This document shows positions 22,118-36,220 of a stretch of DNA of 36,330 nucleotides, piece by piece. Position numbers and translations under genes: made by a program. The notes under the pieces are model-generated. The model made no database searches, was not told the DNA's origin, and worked only from the letters and a program-made list of their open reading frames with translations. The DNA comes from Actinomycetes bacterium (GTDB lineage: Bacteria > Actinomycetota > Acidimicrobiia > Acidimicrobiales > Acidimicrobiaceae). The first letter of the stretch is position 1. Each line of letters begins with the position of its first letter. The stretch is from contig JAKAZZ010000022.1 in assembly GCA_021826315.1 (NCBI GenBank), positions 1-36,330 of the forward strand. Reading direction: 5' to 3'.

Positions 22118-25100
22118 TTATGCCGTTGGCTCGAACGATGGGTTAGTTGTGACTTGATCGTCGCCGAAATCTCCTAGAGAGTTGGCGATCAAATTATGGA
22201 CATCGTAGAAGCGGCCATCTGAGCTATCCAAGACCAGAAGGTGCATCCAGCGATTCATGATCGTATCTTTCAAGAGGCGGTTTTTCGAAATGATCGAGGC
22301 CACCGTCTCCTTGTTTGCGTAGATCACCCCAGTCAAGCGCAGCGGAAGGTGGGCGATTCGACCCTGTGGAGAGGTATAGGCTTGTCGCGCTAATCCTCCA
22401 ATGAGGTCTCCGCTTGTACCGGAGATTGCCCCTAAATTTGATATTGGATTCAGGATGGTCTTGTTTGAGGTGATCACACTCTCGTCGAGAGCTGCAAAGA
22501 AGTAACTCTTAGAGATCATCTCGCCCACGATCATAGGCGCTGACATGATTGATTCCAAGGTAGCTCCGTCGGGATCAAACCTAAGGTCGTAGGATTGAAG
22601 GAAGGATCGTCCCCCTAGATCTAGGCCGCGGGTCATCTCGCGTGGAGCGATGATGAAGCTAGCGGCATTCGCAAGGCCCATTTCGGGCCATCCTTCAAAC
22701 CACCAGTTACTTCTTACGTCGCCTTGGCGAGAAAGACCATTTAGATTTGAGAAGTTTGAAGTCTTGGTCGTAGCCTGATTTATCTCAGAGACCAACTTTA
22801 TAAGTCCCAAGGTGACCGTGGTGGTGTCATCGATTTCAGAGACAATGTCGATATTGGCCCGAGTGGTATCGTGGACTGCCGAGATGAATTTAGTTGTGGT
22901 GGGGATCTGAACTCCATACGTTGCTAAACGCTCACGAATTTCGCGATGGTTTAGAAGTTTCGAAACAAGGGTCGCATTTTCTGCTCCAGAGTTGCCGCCA
23001 CATGCGCCGCATTGATATGCCATTCGATGGAGTTGATTGGTGTTAGTCGAGTGGTGACCAACTAGGACGACGGTGTCGGCGAAGTCCTTTACCAAGCCGA
23101 TTGACTTTAGTGTTGTTGCCATAAGGTAGGTTATCTCCTCTAGCTCTTCATCTTCCATCTCCTCCAATTCAATGCTTCGAAGTGCCTCGATGTCAGCCTT
23201 TTGAGTGGCTTTTCCATTTCGAATTTTGGCGAAGAAGTTAGGGAGGTTCGTCTTTAGGAACGACGCGATACCCATATAGCCACCGATTACCTCAGCACTA
23301 ATAAGAGATAGGGATGGCACGTTGTCGAGGAGTTCATAGCTAGCAGCTATGTCGTTTAGGAGCTCCTCTGAATCGGAGACGACTCTTTTCGAGCTAGCCC
23401 ATCGAATTGGGTCAAGGAGGATTGGTGCTCGAAGTGTTGAAGGCTTGGCTTGACGTACCCGAAAGGGTAGGCCGAAGAAGCCCGCGAGTCCAAATGTGCG
23501 TACGTCTGAGAAGTCCTCTTCAATCATTCGTCGCATTGGTTCGCTCCTGACGTCGATACAAAAGAGCATGTCGATGCTGTTGGTACGATCCAGGGGACCG
23601 CTAACTGCATTATTTGATATCTTGCTTACCAGGCCGACTTGGTAGGTTAGCTCGAGAGCTCGCTGTGCAACTATTCGCACCGCATCTTCTTTGGGTGCCA
23701 ATTCGCCAACGATATCATCGGTTGCCATATGGCGATCATTTTTGGTGGCGTTAGCAAGAGCGTCCGTTGATTCCGACGTTGGTTTACTTTCGTCTTTACA
23801 GACATCGCGATAGTTGATGCCAACAACGAGTTCGGTGAAGAGGAGGGCGAAGGTAATGGCTGCTACTGCAAGGTCTCGTCGCCCCTCCCCAATCCCTCCT
23901 TCGTTGGAGCGATTCATGAGGGTTAGCCATCCTGGGATGATTGTATTAGTTGCTTCGACCAACTGTGAGACTTGGTTGTTACTAGAGGCTCCAAGGAGAT
24001 TAGCTATATGGGCGATTTTGTGAGTCATCAGCTCTAGTAGTTCATCGTTATTGGTGCATTTGCCCTTGACTAATGTGGCAAAGTCGTGACCGAGGGTGAG
24101 CTCTAAGATTCGAAGTGCTATTGCGTTATCTTCGTCAACGACCCTTCCACCTTCCAATAGTGCATCCATGAGGAGGATAGACACTTCTTCTGTGAGTTCA
24201 TCGAAGCTCGCTCCGGTTCTGCTGCTGCGAGCGCTACCAACGTGTTCCCATTTGACTGTTGAGGAAGTTGTGGCAAGGAGGCTCTTTGTTGCACTCTCTA
24301 GCGCACTCTTAGTTTGAAGCTGCTGGGGGACGAGTTCGGGATATAGGGCCAAGGTGTCCTCGACTGCCGCAGGGATCTGCTCGGAGGATATCTCACCTTT
24401 GGAGTACAGGTCGGCAAGGGTTGCTAGTGACGGTAGTGGGAGGTCTCTATTTGGGGTAGTGATATCGAGGAAGTTCTTTTCAATCTGCGATTGAAATGGG
24501 TTCACAGCGACGAAGTTCACCGTTGGAAGTGATAGGGCAATAGTGGAAGTTACCCTTTCGATCCCTAGGTTCACCGAAGAAAGATTGGCTTGATCGATAT
24601 TGTCCTTCGAGATAGCCAGCGATCGTGCCCTGCTCAACTTGCCATGGTATACAAGCGCATTCATTGAAGCGGCGTAACTTCGGTGAAGGATATGGCCGAG
24701 AGCAAGTTTGTCGATCTTTACTGATCGCTTTATTGCAACCGGTGCAATGAGTGATAGTAGAGTTGGAATCCAGATGCCTAGGTGAACGCTCTCTAGGTTT
24801 GTGTAGTGGTTAGCCGCTACCTTGCTGATGGCGATGAAGATCAACCAAGGAGCGACGATAATCGATGCTGCTAGAGTTCGCGCCAGAGTCGATGCGCCAA
24901 CCCGATCCTTGTGGCCAAAGCTAACACTTATTGCAACGTAAAGGGCGATTCCGAAGCCAACAGACTCTGGAATAAGCGAGCTTAGGTTGACTGGGGTGAT
25001 CTTTCCGGTTGCAATGGTTGCAACCGTCATAACGGCTATGGCCACTACTCCCGAGGCTACGGCCCTTAGAGGGTTTCGGGATTTGAAGATCTTTGAACTA

Positions 25101-26038
25101 GCCGATTTGCGATTGCTAGTTGCCTTGTCACTTATAAGTTCAGACTTGTTGAAGGGGTCGCTTGGGGCATCGTACAAGAGATAGCTCTTGAATAGACCGT
25201 GGCCGACTGCGTGGAAGAGACCTAGTACAGGTAGTCCTGAGAGGATTTCGAGGACCATAAATGACATCTGACCGCAAGTAGATACCGCCAATCGTCCCTT
25301 TACGTCTTTAGCGTATGACTTTGCGAGTGAGCTCCAGATGATGGTAGCGATGGCAAGGATGACTATGGCGACGAGAATTCTCTTGTCGAGGGACTGGTAG
25401 TTGCCAAAGTAGATTAGCGCAATTGCTGGTGCGTTTACATATCCTCCATGGAGCATGACGCTCGCAGCAGTTGGTGCGTTCACACTAGCTACTACCCACT
25501 TACTAAATGGCAGCAGACCCGCACGACTGAAGGTCCATATGATCAAGGTGATCTGGGTCAATTTTTGATTCGGGTGGCCATTGGTGGCGGCGCTTACCGC
25601 TACCAAAAGGAGATCACCGATATGGAGGTGCCACGGGTAACGGGGACGCTTCGATCGATCTTGGAAGGGGATTAGGAACGTCGCATAACCCAAGGCGAGG
25701 GTCGAGATTGTTGTGGCGATTGAGAATTGGATTAGCGATGGTGAAAATACCATGGCGAAGGTAGAGAGAAAGAAGATCGACGATGAGTACAGAAACTTCT
25801 TGACATTAGGTTCGCTTCGCATTGTGCCATCGGCGTATGCAAAGACGGTATTTGCGATAATCGTAACTAGGACGACAAAGAGTGCCCTAGATAGATTGAA
25901 GGAGATTCCGAGTATCGGCTGCCCCGACGAAAGTTGAAGGGCGAGGGTCCGAGTTCTGCTTCCTAAGGCAGATAGGACAGCTGTAGTTGCTATGTAGGCA
26001 AAGCCAATTACAAATGGAGTGTACTTCAGTGATCGCAT
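22118..26038 (-). CDS. Fused DabB-DabA-like inorganic carbon uptake pump
   Basis: A single polypeptide of ~1306 aa. The first ~500 residues are a polytopic NuoL/MrpA-like proton-channel domain (FSRAGLLPFSKWVVASVNAP then TAASVMLHGGYVNAPAIALI), as in DabB. The rest is DUF2309/DabA: it opens with LSLPTVNFVAVNPF and carries the zinc-site pattern of DabA (CIDVRSE, GHHS, and CGACGG 15 residues after the first His), i.e. Cys827, Asp829, His995, Cys1010. In characterised systems DabA and DabB are separate subunits that couple proton flow to CO2 hydration and bicarbonate accumulation. The frame extends to ATG 26110, but I prefer ATG 26038 because TTGACA/TATATC promoter boxes end just before it and it starts directly with a TM helix. 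Confidence 0.85.
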   Translation of the reverse strand: MRSLKYTPFVIGFAYIATTAVLSALGSRTRTLALQLSSGQPILGISFNLSRALFVVLVTIIANTVFAYADGTMRSEPNVKKFLYSSSIFFLSTFAMVFSPSLIQFSIATTISTLALGYATFLIPFQDRSKRPRYPWHLHIGDLLLVAVSAATNGHPNQKLTQITLIIWTFSRAGLLPFSKWVVASVNAPTAASVMLHGGYVNAPAIALIYFGNYQSLDKRILVAIVILAIATIIWSSLAKSYAKDVKGRLAVSTCGQMSFMVLEILSGLPVLGLFHAVGHGLFKSYLLYDAPSDPFNKSELISDKATSNRKSASSKIFKSRNPLRAVASGVVAIAVMTVATIATGKITPVNLSSLIPESVGFGIALYVAISVSFGHKDRVGASTLARTLAASIIVAPWLIFIAISKVAANHYTNLESVHLGIWIPTLLSLIAPVAIKRSVKIDKLALGHILHRSYAASMNALVYHGKLSRARSLAISKDNIDQANLSSVNLGIERVTSTIALSLPTVNFVAVNPFQSQIEKNFLDITTPNRDLPLPSLATLADLYSKGEISSEQIPAAVEDTLALYPELVPQQLQTKSALESATKSLLATTSSTVKWEHVGSARSSRTGASFDELTEEVSILLMDALLEGGRVVDEDNAIALRILELTLGHDFATLVKGKCTNNDELLELMTHKIAHIANLLGASSNNQVSQLVEATNTIIPGWLTLMNRSNEGGIGEGRRDLAVAAITFALLFTELVVGINYRDVCKDESKPTSESTDALANATKNDRHMATDDIVGELAPKEDAVRIVAQRALELTYQVGLVSKISNNAVSGPLDRTNSIDMLFCIDVRSEPMRRMIEEDFSDVRTFGLAGFFGLPFRVRQAKPSTLRAPILLDPIRWASSKRVVSDSEELLNDIAASYELLDNVPSLSLISAEVIGGYMGIASFLKTNLPNFFAKIRNGKATQKADIEALRSIELEEMEDEELEEITYLMATTLKSIGLVKDFADTVVLVGHHSTNTNQLHRMAYQCGACGGNSGAENATLVSKLLNHREIRERLATYGVQIPTTTKFISAVHDTTRANIDIVSEIDDTTTVTLGLIKLVSEINQATTKTSNFSNLNGLSRQGDVRSNWWFEGWPEMGLANAASFIIAPREMTRGLDLGGRSFLQSYDLRFDPDGATLESIMSAPMIVGEMISKSYFFAALDESVITSNKTILNPISNLGAISGTSGDLIGGLARQAYTSPQGRIAHLPLRLTGVIYANKETVASIISKNRLLKDTIMNRWMHLLVLDSSDGRFYDVHNLIANSLGDFGDDQVTTNPSFEPTA

Positions 26039-26046
26039 GGATACAT

Positions 26047-26077
26047 GATATAAGAAATACTTTTCATATGTTGTCAA
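26047..26077 (-). promoter_or_regulatory. Predicted promoter of the dabBA-like gene
   Basis: Minus strand: consensus -35 TTGACA (26077-26072) and -10 TATATC (26052-26047) with an 18-19 bp spacer. The -10 box ends 8 bp before the preferred ATG, consistent with a leaderless or nearly leaderless transcript. Confidence 0.5.
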
Positions 26078-26339
26078 TATACGCAAAGTTTTTCGTATGA
26101 AATTTGTCACGACCTACTGAGTCGTTGTGTGCATCCTGAACTACGTACAGATGCCCATTGGATCTCTCCGGTGGCAATTTCTTCATGGACTGCGATCGAA
26201 TGTGTATCAACCGACCGAAGGGCCCCCGGATTCGACCACGTCGCCGCCGAATTGTACGCCGCATTTAGCCTTTCACCGCTTCGGTAACTTTCGCCGGCGT
26301 TTGCAAGAAGTCATCGTTGTAGTGGGTAATCTCGTAACT

Positions 26340-27534: not shown

Positions 27535-28290
27535 TTGGGTCAAGAAAATAGTCAAAGTAGGTATGTGCGTCGCCGCATTTTCTTTCCGAGCATCGCTATG
27601 GGTTTGCTGCTTGCATCGTGTGGCTTGACGTCGAGCGTCGCGCCAGTGGCAAAGGGCGATCTTTCGACTACAACGACACTTCCGGTTATTGTTCTTCCAT
27701 CTGCTATAAACCCACCCCAACAGGGGACTCCAGTTAGCTCTTCGAATCAGATAGCGCCTCCAAGTCATACAACATTGGCCCCTTCCGCGCCTCCAGTAAT
27801 TGCGGCTCAGAGCGACGCTAATACTGTCTCTGCGGCTTCGTTGGGGCAACCCACCACCACCTCTCCTGCTATTACTTCATCGATAACAACTTCGTCTACT
27901 ACCACCCAGCCAATTTCATCTTCTACCACCCAGGTCACCCAAGCTTCGTCGCTACCTACTCTTGGCCTTTCGAGCGCGTACGTTGGAGGAGTGGGCTTTG
28001 GTTCTATTGAGCCCGCGACAATTTCCCTTGGCGGTGATCCGACAGGTGTTATCTCAGCAGTGGCGTGGAGTTCGTGGGGCGATTCAACGGCGACCGGTAG
28101 CGGTATTGCTGCCTACGTAGCGCCAGGCCAAGCGACGGCGACTGCTATAAGGCAGAGTGCTACTATCGTTGCATTCAATTTAGGCGATTGCAATGGAGAG
28201 ATGGTCTATAGGGACATCTTGTGGTACTTCCCTCAATATGGGCAGTCCGAAACTGCTGCGCGTGCAATTCCAACTTGCCCCATTAATTGA
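27535..28290 (+). CDS. Predicted lipoprotein with Thr/Ser-rich linker
   Basis: 251 aa. A basic start (YVRRR) and a hydrophobic segment lead to a lipobox LLLASC with the acylated Cys at position 29. A ~110-residue Thr/Ser/Pro-rich low-complexity region (repeated TTTT, SSTTQ) follows, then a globular C-terminal domain of ~105 residues (GLSSAYVGGVGFGSIEPATISLGGDPTGVISAV onward) containing a pair of Cys (GDCNGEM and IPTCPIN) that could form a disulfide. Family and function not recognised. The start is TTG with AAGGACGGA upstream. Composition and linker style resemble the large surface protein, so it is probably displayed on the cell envelope. Confidence 0.7.
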   Translation: MGQENSQSRYVRRRIFFPSIAMGLLLASCGLTSSVAPVAKGDLSTTTTLPVIVLPSAINPPQQGTPVSSSNQIAPPSHTTLAPSAPPVIAAQSDANTVSAASLGQPTTTSPAITSSITTSSTTTQPISSSTTQVTQASSLPTLGLSSAYVGGVGFGSIEPATISLGGDPTGVISAVAWSSWGDSTATGSGIAAYVAPGQATATAIRQSATIVAFNLGDCNGEMVYRDILWYFPQYGQSETAARAIPTCPIN

Positions 28291-29168: not shown

Positions 29169-29603
29169 TTATTGGCCGTAAGGGGGAGCAATACGTCGTG
29201 GATTGGTCGCGAGATATTCGTTTCCCAACCTCCTAACGTACGCGTAATCGTCAGGGCTGAACTTTGTCATCCAAGGCTTTCGCATGCCAGTGATGACTAC
29301 GATAGCGGGTCCAGGAAGCCCTCGCTGTGTGAGCGCCTCAAGGCTCGCATTTTCAAGAATGCAGAAAAGACGAAACTGTTCGCGATTTGGGCCTTGCGAT
29401 CGAATCTCGTAGTATCCGCCCATTTCTCCGTGCATCGCTTCCCACCGCCCGCCACCTGAGAACTGTGGCGGTGGGGCTTCGGAAACAGCGTCGAGTATAG
29501 CGAATAGCCGCGCACGAACATTAACCGGGCACTCATCAAGGAAATCATCAACAGGGACTATGCCAGAAGGATCTAAGTAGAAGATGACGTCCCATGGAAC
29601 CAT
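29169..29603 (-). CDS. RelE/HigB-type toxin (Gp49-like, DUF891)
   Basis: 144-aa protein of the phage Gp49-like/HigB family, ribosome-dependent mRNA interferases of the RelE superfamily. Visible family features are an N-terminal VIFYLDPSGIVPVDDFLDECP, the central GGGRWEAMHGEMGGYYEIR strand, and FRLFCILENASLEALTQRG, which resembles the F-R-x-Y/F core with basic residues, ending in a helical tail. It is encoded 34 bp downstream of an XRE antitoxin gene (the antitoxin-first order is inverted relative to classical higBA, but common for Gp49-like pairs). The toxic activity is predicted, not shown. Confidence 0.82.
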   Translation of the reverse strand: MVPWDVIFYLDPSGIVPVDDFLDECPVNVRARLFAILDAVSEAPPPQFSGGGRWEAMHGEMGGYYEIRSQGPNREQFRLFCILENASLEALTQRGLPGPAIVVITGMRKPWMTKFSPDDYAYVRRLGNEYLATNPRRIAPPYGQ

Positions 29604-29637
29604 GTCGACTAATCGTTCGCCTTTCTAGTTAGGTGGT

Positions 29638-30003
29638 CTAGGGTATCGGTTTTGAAGAATTGTCGGTGTTCGTAACGGTGGATTGGTTCATACTGATTTC
29701 CAAATGAGCACCGAGTACGCTTGCGATTGCCGCTATCGTTTTCAATTCTGGGTTGACTTCGGCGGTGAATAGCCGTCGTACCGCGGCTGGGTTCTTGCCG
29801 ATCATACGAGCGAGCGCGGCCTTTGATATGCCGGCGTCCGCTCGAAGAGAATCGAGTTGACGAATGATGCTGTCTATCTGAGATATTTCTGTTCGGGCCC
29901 GAAGATATTGTTTTTCAAATTCAGAATCGCGCAATTCTCGAGTGCGGCGTTTTTGATAGTGGGAGGTATCAAGTACCGGTATCTCGCTGTTAGTTGCTGC
30001 CAC
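29638..30003 (-). CDS. XRE-family antitoxin/repressor
   Basis: 121-aa DNA-binding antitoxin. After a charged helical N-terminus it carries a helix-turn-helix (about 55-105): LRADAGISKAALARMIGKNPAAVRRLFTAEVNPELKTIAAIASVLGAHLEI, typical of antitoxins partnered with Gp49-like toxins. GTG start with GGAG about 8 bp upstream. It probably neutralises the toxin encoded directly downstream and represses the operon by binding the palindrome upstream of its own start. Confidence 0.85.
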   Translation of the reverse strand: MAATNSEIPVLDTSHYQKRRTRELRDSEFEKQYLRARTEISQIDSIIRQLDSLRADAGISKAALARMIGKNPAAVRRLFTAEVNPELKTIAAIASVLGAHLEISMNQSTVTNTDNSSKPIP

Positions 30004-31663: not shown

Positions 31664-34600
31664 ATGACGACAAATGTATCTCTAAATTGGCGTTTAGGCG
31701 TCGACGCAGGTAACCGATCGATTGGCCTATCGGCGGTCGAATATGACGATACTGGTAATCCATTGAGAATCTTGTCTGCCGTTTCTTATATTCATGACGG
31801 TGGAATCGATGAGGAAAAGGTACCCGATTCACGAAAGGCCAAGGCGGGGGTTGCGCGAAGGGTTCGGAGAATGCGTAAGTACCGGAAGGGTAGATTGAAC
31901 GGCCTTAGGCGATTTCTATCCGAGAGTGGTATCGGAATTGAGACGGAGATAGCTCCTCAAACTTATCAAGCCTGGATCGCTCGGTCACGCCTTTCTCGCG
32001 AGTATGTGGTTGATCCTCAAGAACGTGCCGAGCTGCTAGCTAGGGCAATCCTTCATATTGCACACTTTCGCGGTTGGAGAAATCCATGGAAGGGTATAAA
32101 TTCGCTTCGTGAATTACCAATTCCGTCACAGTCGCTATCGGAGATGCTGGAGTTCGCAAATCGTAAGTTCGAATTTGCCGAAGGAGATGCACCTAGAACG
32201 ATTGGGGATCTCGGAGCACTGGCGGCGCGTTCGACAGAGGTGAGGGTCCGCCCCAGAGTTACCGTGGAATCTTCATCTAAGAAGACGAAGGTGGAGGATA
32301 TACCACTTACTTCTTCCCTTCTTTTTAATCAGATAAAACAAGAAGACGTTCTTGCTGAATTAGAAGCGATCTTAGAGATGCAAGGCGTTGATGATAAATT
32401 GCGATCCGAAATAGTTGATCGCGTCTTTCACCAAAAGAAACCTTATGTAAAGGCAGAAGCTGTTGGTAGGGACCATTTTGATGGATCGCCACGTGCGCTT
32501 CGCGCCTCGCTTGAGTTTCAGGAATTTAGGATTCGTGATAAAGTCGCGAATTTACGTCAACTCGTTGCAGGAAACAAGGTTCCATTACCGTTAGAGGTTT
32601 CGAATGCCATGGTTGACTATCTCATGAGCTATCGAGACCCTAGTCCGGTTTATTGGAATGTACTTGGTGAGTTGTTCTCGATTCCGGAGGAGCAGTTATC
32701 GGTAGAGAAGTCTCCAGATGGTTCTTCTTTGCGGGCTCCGCTAAATGATACCCTAAGGATTATGACATCGAAGACGATACCAAAGGCCGTCACTTCTTGG
32801 TGGGCCGAGGCGCCATACGATCTTCAGTCCGAACTCATTAGCTATATTGCGGATCCAGTTGAGTCCGAGTTGTCGCCAGAGATTGAGGACCTCTTTATAC
32901 GACTTAGTGACGACGAGGTCAGTAAGTTGATCGGGCTTAAATTTGCAAGCGGTCGCTCTTCTTACGGACGTGAAACACTTCGCAAGCTGAATGCTGCCAT
33001 GAGAGATCACGGTTACGATCTCTACACCGCAAGAAGCGTTGTCTTTGATGCTCCTCCTGACTGGCGCCCGCCGCTTCCGTTGTTTGATTCACAAACAGGA
33101 CAGCCCGCCGTCGATCGGAACCTAGCTATTGTGCGTAGATTTTTGATGGCAGCAACGGAAAAGTGGGGAACCCCTTCGAGGGTAGTAATTGAGCACCAGC
33201 GTGACGGATTTATATCGCCAGAAGAGGCTAGAAAGATCGAATACGAGCAATCGCGAACTCGAAAGCAAAATGACGATATTCGCGAAGAGTTGATTGCGTC
33301 AGGTATATCCCATCCGCGAAAGTACGATATTCGCAAAAAGCGACTTCTTCAGCTGCAAAATACAACTTGCCTTTACTGCGGTGATCCAATAACGTGGGAA
33401 ACGACTGAGCTCGACCACATCGTTCCAAGGGCCGATGGGGGTTCGAATCGGGTATCAAACTTAGCTGCCGTGTGCCGACGATGTAACGCTGCGAAGGGTC
33501 GAATGACTTTTTACACATTCGCTAACAGCGGCAGAGTTACCGCGGTATCTCTCGATGATGCAATCAAGAGAGTTCGCGGTTGGCTGAAGCCTGACATGCG
33601 ATTCGATCAAAAGCAGTTCAAGGCATATCAAGATGAAGTAGTCAATCGACTCAAGCGCAAAACCTTCGACGAACCAATCGATGACCGTTCTTTCGCATCC
33701 ACTGCATACGCGGCTGTGGAAATCCGTGAGCGCGTTGAAGACTTTCTAGTGAGGCGATGTGCGCTAGAACCAAAAGAAGCTCACCATCGCGTAGTTGTGT
33801 TTAACGGCAGAGTCACCTCTCTAGCTCGCAAGGCAGCTCAATTTGACCGTCATGTGAACTTGCGTGGCGCGGGATTCAAGACGAGATTAGATCGCCGCCA
33901 TCACGCACTGGACGCTACAATCGTTACTTCGTTGTCGGCGATGGTTGCCCAAGGGCTTGTTACTATCGACGAAAAGCGACAGGGCCTCAAGTCTGAAGGT
34001 CTACCAGGGTGGCAGAGTGAAGATATTGCATCATTCCTAACTTCTGAACTCGCAAGCGTCTACTTTCGTTGGTTGCGACAGGCAACAGGTTTGGCTGGAC
34101 TTCTCGGTGCGCACCTTGATAACGATAAAGTGCCCGTGATAAATCCTCATCGTCTCACTGTTAGGTTCGGAAGCCTGCATCAAGAATCAATAGATCCATT
34201 GTTGAAAATTGAGCTTGGGTCTTCGTTTGATTCATCAACAATAAGGAGAGTTGTCGATCCAAATATCTATCTCACATTAAGGGAACTTGAGGTAATAGCG
34301 GGATTGAAGGGAGGAGGGATCGAATTCGATGCGGGACGCGATGTTGTGCTTCCGAACCGGAAAGTACTCCATTCCGAAGATTTGATTGATGTTTTCCCAT
34401 TCAATGAGGGTGGCCTCAAAGTTGCAAATGGCTGCGTCAAGCTCGGCTCGTTTCATCATGCGCGGGTCTATGCGTGGAAAGATAAAAAAGGTTCAATCAA
34501 ATTTGGAATTCTTCGAGTATTTGCAGGTGAAATGGCAAAGATAGGGCTTACGGATGACGTTGACGTTTTAACGGCGCCTATACCTATCTGGTCGGAGTCT

Positions 34601-35026
34601 TATCGCTTGGCTGATCCAGGAGCAATTAATGCCCTTGAGACGATGAACGCAATCCAAATTGGTTGGCTCACGGTGGGTGACGAGTTCGACTTCGGTGACC
34701 CGTCTGATGTGCCGGGTAGCGGTGTCATTCGCACATTTTTAGCGGAGTTTCCGGAGCGGCGATGGTCGTTGGACGGGATTCCTAGCACTTCTAGGCTTCG
34801 CCTCCGACCACTGTACCTGGCCAAAGAAGGTTTCGACGAAGGTTTCTCTTCGGAAAGTCGGGCCATGGTTGACCGACCTGGTTGGCTGCCAGCTGTGGGA
34901 GTAGTTTTTAGTTCGCCAAAACTTACAGTCATCCGCAGAACAACGTTAGGTCAACCTCGATGGAATGGCGACCATATGCCGAGATCTTGGAGCCCGTATA
35001 AGAAAGCGCTGGAAGTACTAGGGTGA
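31664..35026 (+). CDS. cas9: CRISPR-associated endonuclease Cas9, type II-C
   Basis: 1120-aa RNA-guided DNA endonuclease. RuvC-I: Asp14 in LGVDAGNRSIGLSAVEYD. An arginine-rich bridge helix (about 57-86: RKAKAGVARRVRRMRKYRKG) follows, then a helical recognition lobe (about 90-490). RuvC-II: Glu510 in VVIEHQRDG. HNH: His585 in ELDHIVPRADGG with Asn608, plus a zinc pair CLYC (569/572) and CRRC (604/607). RuvC-III: His747 and Asp750 in HHALDATIV. The ~300-residue C-terminus should hold wedge and PAM-interacting domains. All nuclease residues are intact. Length and HNH zinc motifs resemble the compact actinobacterial Cas9 of Acidothermus. No Shine-Dalgarno precedes the ATG. It overlaps cas1 by 4 bp. 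Confidence 0.97.
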   Translation: MTTNVSLNWRLGVDAGNRSIGLSAVEYDDTGNPLRILSAVSYIHDGGIDEEKVPDSRKAKAGVARRVRRMRKYRKGRLNGLRRFLSESGIGIETEIAPQTYQAWIARSRLSREYVVDPQERAELLARAILHIAHFRGWRNPWKGINSLRELPIPSQSLSEMLEFANRKFEFAEGDAPRTIGDLGALAARSTEVRVRPRVTVESSSKKTKVEDIPLTSSLLFNQIKQEDVLAELEAILEMQGVDDKLRSEIVDRVFHQKKPYVKAEAVGRDHFDGSPRALRASLEFQEFRIRDKVANLRQLVAGNKVPLPLEVSNAMVDYLMSYRDPSPVYWNVLGELFSIPEEQLSVEKSPDGSSLRAPLNDTLRIMTSKTIPKAVTSWWAEAPYDLQSELISYIADPVESELSPEIEDLFIRLSDDEVSKLIGLKFASGRSSYGRETLRKLNAAMRDHGYDLYTARSVVFDAPPDWRPPLPLFDSQTGQPAVDRNLAIVRRFLMAATEKWGTPSRVVIEHQRDGFISPEEARKIEYEQSRTRKQNDDIREELIASGISHPRKYDIRKKRLLQLQNTTCLYCGDPITWETTELDHIVPRADGGSNRVSNLAAVCRRCNAAKGRMTFYTFANSGRVTAVSLDDAIKRVRGWLKPDMRFDQKQFKAYQDEVVNRLKRKTFDEPIDDRSFASTAYAAVEIRERVEDFLVRRCALEPKEAHHRVVVFNGRVTSLARKAAQFDRHVNLRGAGFKTRLDRRHHALDATIVTSLSAMVAQGLVTIDEKRQGLKSEGLPGWQSEDIASFLTSELASVYFRWLRQATGLAGLLGAHLDNDKVPVINPHRLTVRFGSLHQESIDPLLKIELGSSFDSSTIRRVVDPNIYLTLRELEVIAGLKGGGIEFDAGRDVVLPNRKVLHSEDLIDVFPFNEGGLKVANGCVKLGSFHHARVYAWKDKKGSIKFGILRVFAGEMAKIGLTDDVDVLTAPIPIWSESYRLADPGAINALETMNAIQIGWLTVGDEFDFGDPSDVPGSGVIRTFLAEFPERRWSLDGIPSTSRLRLRPLYLAKEGFDEGFSSESRAMVDRPGWLPAVGVVFSSPKLTVIRRTTLGQPRWNGDHMPRSWSPYKKALEVLG

Positions 35027-35910
35027 GCGCCCCATGGCGAATAATCGACCTTACTGAGTACGAAGGTGAGATATTTGCATCGAAGGGTCATCTGAACGCT
35101 GGAACTAAAAGTGCAGCACTCGCGGATATTGTTGCAATTCTTTTTGGTACGAAGAACTTGATCCATTCGTCGGTCTTCGATCGAGCAGCTGCTTTCGACA
35201 TTGTTTTGCTCCACTGCAATTGGGCAAATGTTCCGATATCTTCGACTATTCCTTGGTCTGAGAATACTCGTGTCGCAGCACGTCATATTGCCCAGGCGAA
35301 CCTTGAAATCCCAAGACAAAAGAATGCGTGGATGAGAATAGTAAAAGCCAAGGTTAAAGGACAAGCAAATAACTTGAAAGTAGCTGGAGACATTGATGGT
35401 CATAAGTTCTTAGTTGAACTTGCTGATGGCGTAAGGTCGGGGGACCCAGCAAATATTGAAGGGCAAGCTGCGAAATACTACTGGCGTCGGTTTTTTGACG
35501 ATCGATCGTTTCGTCGGGTGGCCGGCGGAACGCTTTCCTTCAATACTCATTTGAACTACGGATATTCAATATTGAGAGGACGTGTCCTACGTGCCGTTCT
35601 AGAGGCAGGCCTTTGGCCTTCGCTAGGAATTTGGCATTCGAATCGAAGTAATACCTTCGCGTTAGCCGATGATCTTATTGAGCCATTTAGACCAGCGGTT
35701 GATCTGGTGGCCCGGTCTATTGGAGGCGGTGAACTCGATAGAGATGCCAAGAAGGCTCTTGCCGCGGTTTTGGATATGCCGGTTTTGCGCTCGGACTTTA
35801 CGCTTTCAAGCGAAATTTCGAGATTTTCGCAAAGATTTGCAAACTATGTAGAAGGAAAGGAAAAGTTCTTATCAGTTCCGATTTTTGGCGGTGAATATGA
35901 AGAAGCGTGA
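35023..35910 (+). CDS. cas1: CRISPR integrase Cas1
   Basis: 295-aa integrase that, with Cas2, inserts new spacers. Predicted metal ligands are Glu146 (NIEGQAAKYYW), His205 (GIWHSNRSN) and Asp216/217 with Glu220 (ADDLIEPFRP). The segment SFNTHLNYGYSILRGRVLRAVLEAGLWPSLG is the hallmark of type II Cas1. The GTG start overlaps the cas9 stop (GTGA) and the 3' end overlaps cas2, so the three genes form one translationally coupled operon. No csn2 or cas4 is present, which defines subtype II-C. Confidence 0.96.
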   Translation: MSAPWRIIDLTEYEGEIFASKGHLNAGTKSAALADIVAILFGTKNLIHSSVFDRAAAFDIVLLHCNWANVPISSTIPWSENTRVAARHIAQANLEIPRQKNAWMRIVKAKVKGQANNLKVAGDIDGHKFLVELADGVRSGDPANIEGQAAKYYWRRFFDDRSFRRVAGGTLSFNTHLNYGYSILRGRVLRAVLEAGLWPSLGIWHSNRSNTFALADDLIEPFRPAVDLVARSIGGGELDRDAKKALAAVLDMPVLRSDFTLSSEISRFSQRFANYVEGKEKFLSVPIFGGEYEEA

Positions 35911-36220
35911 TCCAATGTGGGTTTTAGTTATGTTTGATCTCCCAACCTTGACCTCAGTTGAGAGGCGAGATGCCTCGAAGTATAGGGAGTACCTGAAGCA
36001 CATCGGTTTCGATATGGTTCAGCTCAGTGTATATGCGAGATACCTACCGAATTCCGGATACCTTGCAACACTATATAAGAAGATTGAAATAGTAATTCCT
36101 GATGATGGGGATGTTCGAGCGTTGGCTGTTACGGATATTGAATGGTCGCGAACTATGCACTTCCAAGGTAAAAAACGAGTTCAGGTTGAAGAAGTTCCCG
36201 AACAATTACTCATTTTTTAG
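35897..36220 (+). CDS. cas2: CRISPR-associated protein Cas2
   Basis: 107-aa ferredoxin-fold partner of Cas1 in spacer integration. Asp14 in WVLVMFDLP is the conserved position of the family, and FDMVQLSVYARYLPN follows as usual, with a C-terminal strand ending EVPEQLLIF. The frame is open from TTG 35885, but ATG 35897 is the best start and overlaps the end of cas1 by 14 bp. Last gene of the operon; followed by a hairpin and the array. Confidence 0.95.
   Translation: MKKRDPMWVLVMFDLPTLTSVERRDASKYREYLKHIGFDMVQLSVYARYLPNSGYLATLYKKIEIVIPDDGDVRALAVTDIEWSRTMHFQGKKRVQVEEVPEQLLIF

Follow-up and report, generated by a model that had tools for sequence, protein, structure and literature searches.

A divergent natural DabB–DabA fusion in an Acidimicrobiaceae genome, a likely single-chain inorganic carbon pump

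Results

The window, a stretch of 36,330 nucleotides from an Actinomycetes bacterium of the family Acidimicrobiaceae, comprises the entire contig C11 of the host genome (G000). It carries an open reading frame of DabB and DabA in one polypeptide with zero internal stops, and its features are compiled in Table 1.

Table 1. Positions of the fused DabB–DabA frame and its features in the window
Feature	Position	Strand	Basis
Whole open frame, fused DabB–DabA	22118..26110	-	GTG start, 1330 aa
Likely CDS of the fused protein, ATG = codon 25 of the GTG ORF, 1306 aa	22118..26038	-	dS and DNA conservation
Leader, 72 nt, DNA-level conservation across three fusions, inverted TTTCATA...TATGAAA	26039..26110	-	Alignment
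DabB half, NuoL/MrpA-like proton-channel domain, residues 25-480	24671..26038	-	PF00361; AF2 model resembling NuoL/ND5 chains
Linker region, residues 481-520, in frame	24551..24670	-	25-32% identity among three fusions (variable)
DabA half, PF10070, residues 517-1289	22244..24562	-	Pfam
Zn ligand Cys851 and Asp853-Arg855 dyad (DabA2 C351, D353, R355)	23546..23560	-	Alignment
Zn ligands His1019, Cys1034 (DabA2 H524, C539)	23009..23056	-	Alignment
Probable finger (helix-loop-helix) near residues 913-955, carrying Glu940 (DabA2 E444)	23246..23374	-	Alignment
Replaced T2 tunnel-gate residues Trp1141 (DabA2 R653), Met1144 (DabA2 W656)	22679..22690	-	Alignment
Replaced T1b gate residue Gln1172 (DabA2 H684)	22595..22597	-	Alignment

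Domain composition of the fused protein

Pfam searches matched the DabA domain PF10070 over its complete model (1-747 of 747; 412.7 bits, cut-off 25, E 4.4e-123) and Proton_antipo_M (PF00361) at residues 167-314 (47.3 bits, cut-off 21.5, E 2.1e-12), while the score of Proton_antipo_N stayed under its cut-off. The top PDB chain for the protein was DabA2 (9rd0_A, E 3.4e-61); for the N-terminal half, the complex I chain 6hum_F (4.5e-10) ranked slightly ahead of DabB2 (9rd0_B, 2.5e-09). These sequence matches confirm the domain assignment and the order DabB then DabA proposed in the first-pass annotation. An N-terminus from another transporter family, which that annotation had considered as a pitfall, is ruled out, as the Pfam, PDB sequence and AF2-model matches all fall among NuoL/ND5/Mrp/DabB proteins.

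The same fusion is encoded at full length, each time as one uninterrupted ORF, in two further genomes of the genus (G204 and G205; 73-74% and 67% identity), and each of the three genomes yielded one PF10070 match. Both additional carriers are public Actinomycetes MAGs, which agrees with the actinobacterial host named earlier. In the two sister proteins, the DabB half gave no PF00361 match at E 0.001. By codon comparison, both halves of the fusion are under purifying selection: where dS was unsaturated, dN/dS ranged from 0.07 to 0.19 across the DabB half and the N-domain, core and tail of DabA.

Translational start and leader

Between the GTG and the ATG at 26038, dS was 0.15-0.26, compared with 1.6-2.4 or saturation in the other segments. 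Because the low synonymous divergence occurs only upstream of this ATG, as does the block of DNA conservation, the ATG is the likelier start and the first 24 codons of the GTG frame are probably untranslated. The leader is a probable promoter/operator, and a leaderless transcript starting from the ATG is suggested; TTATAT is positioned 9 nt before it. The leader site was absent from the output of a consensus promoter scan, and searches of the window with Rfam (gathering threshold) and for tRNAs found nothing.

Catalytic and coupling residues

The conserved C, D, H, C metal pattern noticed earlier corresponds to C851, D853, H1019 and C1034, to which R855 can be added. This Cys2-His Zn site and Asp-Arg dyad are identical in all three window-type fusions, as are Leu658 (L1146), which stands in place of the transition-state Gln/His of beta-carbonic anhydrases, and the finger residue Glu444, aligned with Glu940 by MAFFT, whereas phmmer alone puts the two one place apart. 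In the low-confidence, near-full-length model described below, the finger region forms two helices. In the DabB half, S256, H260, K310, S316, H339, H343 and K347 are kept in three of three fusions (Ser217, His221, Lys271, Ser277, His300, His304 and Lys308 in window numbering). The Zn ligands, the Asp-Arg dyad, the finger Glu and the DabB proton-path residues have been mutation-tested in DAB2 (Lo 2026).

At the DabB ion-pair positions, the window-type fusions keep D185 and show K235 replaced by Arg, R182 by His and I151 by Thr. Neither Lys235 to Arg nor the loss of the TM5 Glu is a special feature: Arg is the majority residue at position 235 (48 of 60 DabB rows), and DabB2 itself has Ile151, Glu being present in just 3 of 60 rows.

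DAB2 (DabA2/DabB2) of Halothiobacillus neapolitanus (PDB 9rd0) shares with the window protein the Zn site, the Asp-Arg dyad, Leu658, Glu444 and the DabB His/Lys path, and its engineered fusion has the same domain set and order. The window protein differs in being a natural fusion, in R653W, W656M, H684Q and F375L in DabA and K235R and R182H in DabB, and in having apparently one N-terminal helix fewer. Hydropathy analysis gave one hydrophobic segment, not two, ahead of the TM3 equivalent (DabB2 has 15 transmembrane helices), and the AF2 model likewise contains one N-terminal segment, with pLDDT mostly 41-66 from about residue 315 on; one helix seems to have been lost relative to DabB2. A near-full-length model of 1200 aa was poor (pLDDT 63.7, pTM 0.53), and among the best 50 of its 361 PDB matches all were complex I or Mrp chains and none was DabA, 9rd0 possibly lying outside the library.

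Replaced tunnel-gate residues

Four positions described as gates in DAB2, and not taken here as defining DAB/DAC, are replaced jointly in all three window-type fusions: H684 by Gln, W656 by Met, R653 by Trp and F375 by Leu or Ile (Leu in the window protein). A376, F378, I700, A703 and P704 are retained in the clade. The H684 position is occupied by His in all 51 other rows with a letter. Three split DABs (L134, L141 and L145) likewise carry Met in place of W656 and have Val for F375, and R653 is not conserved as Arg in 20 of those 51 rows, so these three gates tolerate replacement.

Origin of the fusion

In the DabA and DabB trees alike, the fused rows occupy three distinct places, with three changes of state on each tree, and a single clade of all six fused rows was rejected (p-AU 0.002, DabA quick tree). 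One place is taken by the window clade, which sits on a very long branch: its stem measures 3.1 (DabA) and 3.9 (DabB) changes per site, and of the columns with at least 93% conservation among the remaining rows it keeps only 73 of 95 in DabA and 16 of 21 in DabB. The DabA tree puts this clade beside the split L134/L141/L145 group with a support of 87, where long branches meet; in the DabB tree it does not stand beside that group.

The second place is that of the Acidimicrobium ferrooxidans fusion (L059:5685-9884, 1400 aa, in genome G080, which we infer to be this species). It belongs to the same taxonomic family as the window host and resembles the window protein in having DabB then DabA in one ORF with the same kept catalytic residues. 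In each tree, however, it branches from within the split DABs and separately from the window clade; it also matches PF10070 with 889 bits versus 415, has two N-terminal hydrophobic segments rather than one, and retains F375, H684, R653 and W656. BMC shell and RuBisCO genes are located in its vicinity (three BMC matches and RuBisCO, within about 12 kb). This fusion has reportedly been subjected to a functional test. In the third place, sister to split DABs, are the fusions of G344 (L149, 1400 aa) and G389 (L150, 1372 aa), genomes from two further families of the order; they share the single DabB–DabA ORF with both Pfam domains and keep F375, R653, W656 and H684. Because the fused rows are separated in this way, the window fusion looks independent in origin of that in A. 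ferrooxidans, with the caveat that the window clade forms a long branch.

An in-place fusion of the usual DAB locus of the genus was not supported by neighbourhood comparison. In five genomes of the genus, the AlaX-like gene adjoins a different MFS gene with no DAB in between, and queries with 15 other genes of the window had no match in the short flanking sequences of the five split-DAB loci examined.

Carbon metabolism of the host

The first-pass annotation had found no RuBisCO or carbonic anhydrase gene near the fusion. This holds within the window, and so for the whole contig, but not genome-wide: the only matches to PF00016 and to PF00484, the beta class for which carbonic anhydrases were searched, lie on contigs C66 and C98. 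A RuBisCO-free host is thereby rejected. The CBB cluster on C66 comprises the large and small subunits of RuBisCO, an AAA protein in the CbbX position, an epimerase, a transketolase, a GlpX FBPase and a PRK-family kinase. No BMC shell genes were found in G000, G204 or G205, and the host is probably an autotroph without carboxysomes. Because all three carriers have a beta-carbonic anhydrase match, the pump may be unneeded for basic bicarbonate supply. The host is presumably acidophilic, judging from its family; outside an acidophile, CO2 is the main form of inorganic carbon.

Discussion

The protein is likely a single-chain DAB/DAC, that is, a vectorial carbonic anhydrase driven by the proton motive force which would supply inorganic carbon to an autotroph. 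By analogy with Halothiobacillus DAB2, from which its chemistry, coupling and direction are deduced, CO2 would enter the Zn site buried in the DabA half, where its hydration would occur only while protons flow through the NuoL-like DabB half. The finger of DabA, with Glu940, would complete the outer half-channel and communicate the proton step to both the Zn site and the tunnels, so that bicarbonate would be trapped in the cytoplasm. From there it might feed HCO3- carboxylases and, via the beta-carbonic anhydrase, a non-carboxysomal RuBisCO.

Divergence of the clade, the replaced gates of both tunnels and the apparently missing helix count against the assignment as a proton-driven pump, as do the missing PF00361 match in the sister proteins, the poor near-full-length model and the beta-carbonic anhydrase match in all three carriers. 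The joint gate replacement in particular would fit a pump which keeps the coupling of protons to the Zn site but has changed in direction, gating or purpose, for example one providing CO2 from bicarbonate to a non-carboxysomal RuBisCO or serving pH homeostasis. The missing BMC shell matches, compared with three in G080, point the same way, as does the beta-carbonic anhydrase match in three of three window-type carriers versus 2 of the family's 19 other DAB carriers. We nevertheless regard such a change as unlikely. The substitutions at F375 and W656 have counterparts in split DABs and R653 is variable. No change is seen in the Zn site, Leu658 or the proton path. Absence of BMC is not peculiar to the fusion, since 7 of 12 searched genomes lack a BMC match, and four of these belong to the genus but carry split DABs. 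The link with beta-carbonic anhydrase may represent one event because the three carriers are close kin, and their MAGs are 86-90% complete. A more far-reaching proposal, which we consider quite unlikely, would make the clade a distinct DAB subfamily: independently fused, one helix shorter, with the R653/W656 bicarbonate exit and the F375/H684 T1b gates rebuilt in the course of prolonged sequence change, so that protons would be coupled to CO2/HCO3- interconversion with a different gating or direction, in a carboxysome-less autotroph that keeps its beta-carbonic anhydrase.

Staphylococcus aureus MpsAB is a pair homologous to DabB and DabA according to Fan 2019, though encoded by two genes, and this DAB homologue has been argued to be sodium-coupled (Lo 2026). 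A Na+/HCO3- symporter of the MpsAB type instead of a proton-driven CO2 hydratase is distinctly improbable for the window protein, as it retains the proton path that was mapped in DAB2 and an acidophile should meet little bicarbonate outside the cell. The long branch might also suggest a decaying or non-functional gene; with low dN/dS while synonymous sites are near saturation, and with catalytic residues intact, this is very improbable. Finally, two genes joined in error could be imagined in a draft genome of 110 contigs (89.9% complete), yet the chance of this, or of a sequencing error hiding a stop as feared earlier, is negligible, since two other MAGs of the genus have the same architecture in uninterrupted ORFs with the same MFS and AlaX-like neighbours.

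The fusion itself, at first taken as a novelty, is not new, because Fan 2019 already describes a fused DabB–DabA gene in A. ferrooxidans. Nor does the suggested use of a fixed 1:1 fusion for structural work lie ahead: the DAB2 cryo-EM construct (Lo 2026) is an engineered DabB2–DabA2 fusion in the same order, mirroring that of A. ferrooxidans, and growth yield was not significantly affected by the engineered fusion. What seems new, on the strength of the alignments and trees, is a separate and very divergent fusion lineage; among the open-licence papers searched, no paper on the window-type fusion was found.

That DabB and DabA appear to have been fused repeatedly, with DabB first each time, in three lineages of one taxonomic order fits the idea of an obligate 1:1 unit. 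No new kind of system is opened by it; its relevance lies in how proton flow couples to CO2 hydration. Here the diverged natural fusion may be read as a built-in mutagenesis experiment over about 3-4 changes per site, in which the Zn site, Leu658, the finger Glu and the His/Lys path survived and the tunnel gates did not.

Reality and distribution of the fused gene

The first-pass annotation had placed DabB and DabA in one uninterrupted ORF. This was confirmed by a frame of 1330 codons free of stops and by the same full-length fusion in two related genomes. A Pfam search of the full protein likewise assigned the whole DabA model to the C-terminal part (residues 517-1289, E = 4.4e-123) and Proton_antipo_M to the N-terminal part (residues 167-314, E = 2.1e-12). 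The 11 NCBIfam matches, to models of NuoL, NuoM, antiporters and hydrogenase-4 subunit D, all scored well under their cut-offs. The top PDB chain for the fused protein was DabA2 of Halothiobacillus (9rd0_A, 3.4e-61). For the N-terminal half, NuoL-type chains were found, 6hum_F (4.5e-10) being closely followed by DabB2 (9rd0_B, 2.5e-09).

Among 11 other genomes of the genus, only G205 (74% identity) and G204 (67%) contained the full-length fusion. PF10070 matched once in each of the three fused genomes; in six of the remaining nine the DAB was split or cut by a contig end, and three had no PF10070 match. One genome_contigs scan, built on two peptide patterns and possibly omitting the window's own genome, returned only these two fusions, on the public MAG contigs JAJZFV010000048.1 (LL3.bin54) and JAKCDL010000013.1 (ZJ1.bin61). 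An order-wide survey with the fusion alignment matched 46 of 298 genomes at 1e-30 or better, the host included; G204 and G205 were absent from the matches listed, and besides the window none of those listed extended into the DabB half. Where dS was unsaturated, dN/dS among the window-type fusions lay at 0.07-0.19 for four segments (DabB half, DabA N-domain, DabA core, tail); the linker gave 0.46-0.58, and a variable loop at 761-805 gave 0.80.

Origin of the fusions

Schmid and co-workers (2021) reportedly tested one-, two- and three-subunit DACs, as DABs are also called, in carbonic anhydrase-deficient E. coli. The pump can no longer be said to be known solely as a two-gene system: a fused gene in Acidimicrobium ferrooxidans is described in Fan 2019 (PMC6689103). 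Lo 2026 (PMC13144422) presents the DAB2 structure, puts forward vectorial CO2 hydration driven by the PMF, and works with an engineered DabB2-DabA2 fusion that is described as mirroring that of A. ferrooxidans.

Both halves were matched in 61 of 62 loci examined and lay in one ORF at six: the window, L060 and L061 (the two related MAGs), L059 (G080, probably A. ferrooxidans), L149 (G344) and L150 (G389). Pfam detected both domains in L059, L149 and L150, and DabA alone in L060 and L061. Fused rows occupied three separate places on the DabA and DabB trees (60 rows each), requiring at least three changes of the split/fused state on either; three were again needed on a DabA tree from which 17 long-branched, partial, overlong or near-duplicate rows had been removed. 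Forcing the six fused rows into one clade on the quick DabA tree cost 399 log units (p-AU 0.002). The window-type fusion thus apparently arose independently and diverged strongly. These were quick trees with SH-aLRT as sole support measure. For the window clade the program issued warnings that long branches meet there (DabA trees) and that its letter composition is unusual (DabA and DabB trees). Because its stem measures 3.1 (DabA) and 3.9 (DabB) changes per site, its exact sister is unsure; split-gene loci L134, L141 and L145 (genus g151) are possible nearest kin, on the DabA tree only. A third lineage of fusions is formed by L149 and L150, which come from two other families of the order and keep the usual residues at the gates.

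Conserved and replaced residues

Residues were mapped by DabA2/DabB2 numbering on MAFFT alignments (56 rows for DabA, 60 for DabB); four overlong DabA rows (L180-L183) and DabB row L180 were left out of the counts. All three window-type fusions keep the DabA Zn ligands, Asp-Arg dyad, Ala376, Phe378, Leu658 and Glu444, as well as DabB Ser256, His260, Lys310, Ser316, His339, His343, Lys347 and Asp185. Of the DabA columns in which the other 53 rows show conservation of 93% or more, the clade retains 73 of 95; of such DabB columns it retains 16 of 21. In its DabB, K235 is replaced by Arg, R182 by His and I151 by Thr. In this phylum, 48 of the 60 DabB rows have Arg at the Lys235 position (NuoL Lys229), and the DAB2-type ion pair is therefore mostly Arg-Asp in them.

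Gate residues of two tunnels are named in Lo 2026 (PMC13144422); our comparison covered H684, W656, R653 and F375. The window clade has Gln at H684 (His in 51/51 other rows with a letter), Met at W656 (Trp in 48/51, Met in three), Trp at R653 (Arg in 31/51) and Leu or Ile at F375 (Phe in 47/53). What is new is a fusion that apparently arose on its own, has diverged strongly and carries altered tunnel gates.

L134, L141 and L145 represent a second divergent DAB type, in which the W656 gate is Met and F375 is Val. The finger Glu, otherwise kept, is Gly in L176 and L179 and Asp in L171, and one otherwise kept Zn-ligand Cys is Arg in L129; these may be real variants, misalignments or sequence errors.

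Predicted structure and start site

Residues 25-520 were modelled with AF2 from 32 rows, with a pLDDT of 72.7; the model is good as far as residue 315 or so, beyond which values lie mostly at 41-66. Of its 525 Foldseek matches, the 50 listed comprised one Mrp model and otherwise NuoL/ND5-type chains, with a best E of 7.7e-09 and query TM-scores of about 0.5. Helix order and hydropathy both indicated one helix before the TM3 equivalent, whereas A. ferrooxidans has two hydrophobic segments there. The model of residues 25-1224 was poor (pLDDT 63.7, pTM 0.53). It had 361 PDB matches, and those listed, 50 in number, were complex I or Mrp chains, with no DabA among them.

Among the window-type fusions, dS was 0.15-0.26 across the first 24 codons and 1.6-2.4 or saturated in other segments. 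Their DNA alignment contains a conserved block with an inverted TTTCATA...TATGAAA and TTATAT 9 nt 5' of an ATG at codon 25, a site absent from the listing of a promoter consensus scan. This pattern suggests a promoter, with a leaderless start site at 26038 that would yield a 1306-aa protein.

Host and carbon metabolism

The host draft genome (2.82 Mb, 110 contigs, 89.9% complete) includes the window as contig C11. Contig C66 carries both RuBisCO subunits, ribulose-phosphate epimerase, transketolase, GlpX FBPase, a PRK-family kinase and an AAA protein at the position of a presumed CbbX; C98 encodes a 166-aa beta-carbonic anhydrase. In 36 family genomes, this enzyme (PF00484) occurred in 5 of 22 DAB carriers (window-type 3/3, others 2/19, no match in A. 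ferrooxidans) and 8 of the 14 that lacked a DAB match, and RuBisCO in 19/22 and 8/14, respectively, counts whose meaning is limited by close kinship and incomplete genomes. BMC shell genes were present in 5 of 12 genomes searched (G080, G212, G214, G201, G208); G198, G199, G206 and G207, four congeneric genomes with a split DAB, gave no match. Three BMC matches lie no more than about 6 kb from the A. ferrooxidans fusion, whereas the three window-type carriers had none. Acidimicrobiaceae are often met at acidic, metal-contaminated sites, according to PMC4714123, and from its family we infer an acidophilic host.

Neighbouring features

The window copy of the lipoprotein-like ORF had no Pfam match. 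The two small ORFs resemble a toxin-antitoxin pair, and the near-repeat may comprise an anti-repeat and the first CRISPR repeat.

Features of the window and of the two related loci
Feature	Location	Strand	Remarks
Fused DabB-DabA ORF	window 22118-26110	-	
Thr/Ser-rich lipoprotein-like ORF	window 27535-28290	+	conserved C-terminal domain
Thr/Ser-rich lipoprotein-like ORFs, tandem pair	L060:11784-13288; L061:10914-12527		adjoin fused DAB in both related MAGs
Two small adjacent ORFs	window 29169-30003	-	HTH_3 in one; 144-aa partner without Pfam match
22-nt near-repeat	window 31505 and 36285		near CRISPR-Cas locus
Type II CRISPR-Cas locus	window 31664-36220	+	Cas9 (1120 aa), Cas1, Cas2-sized ORF at contig end
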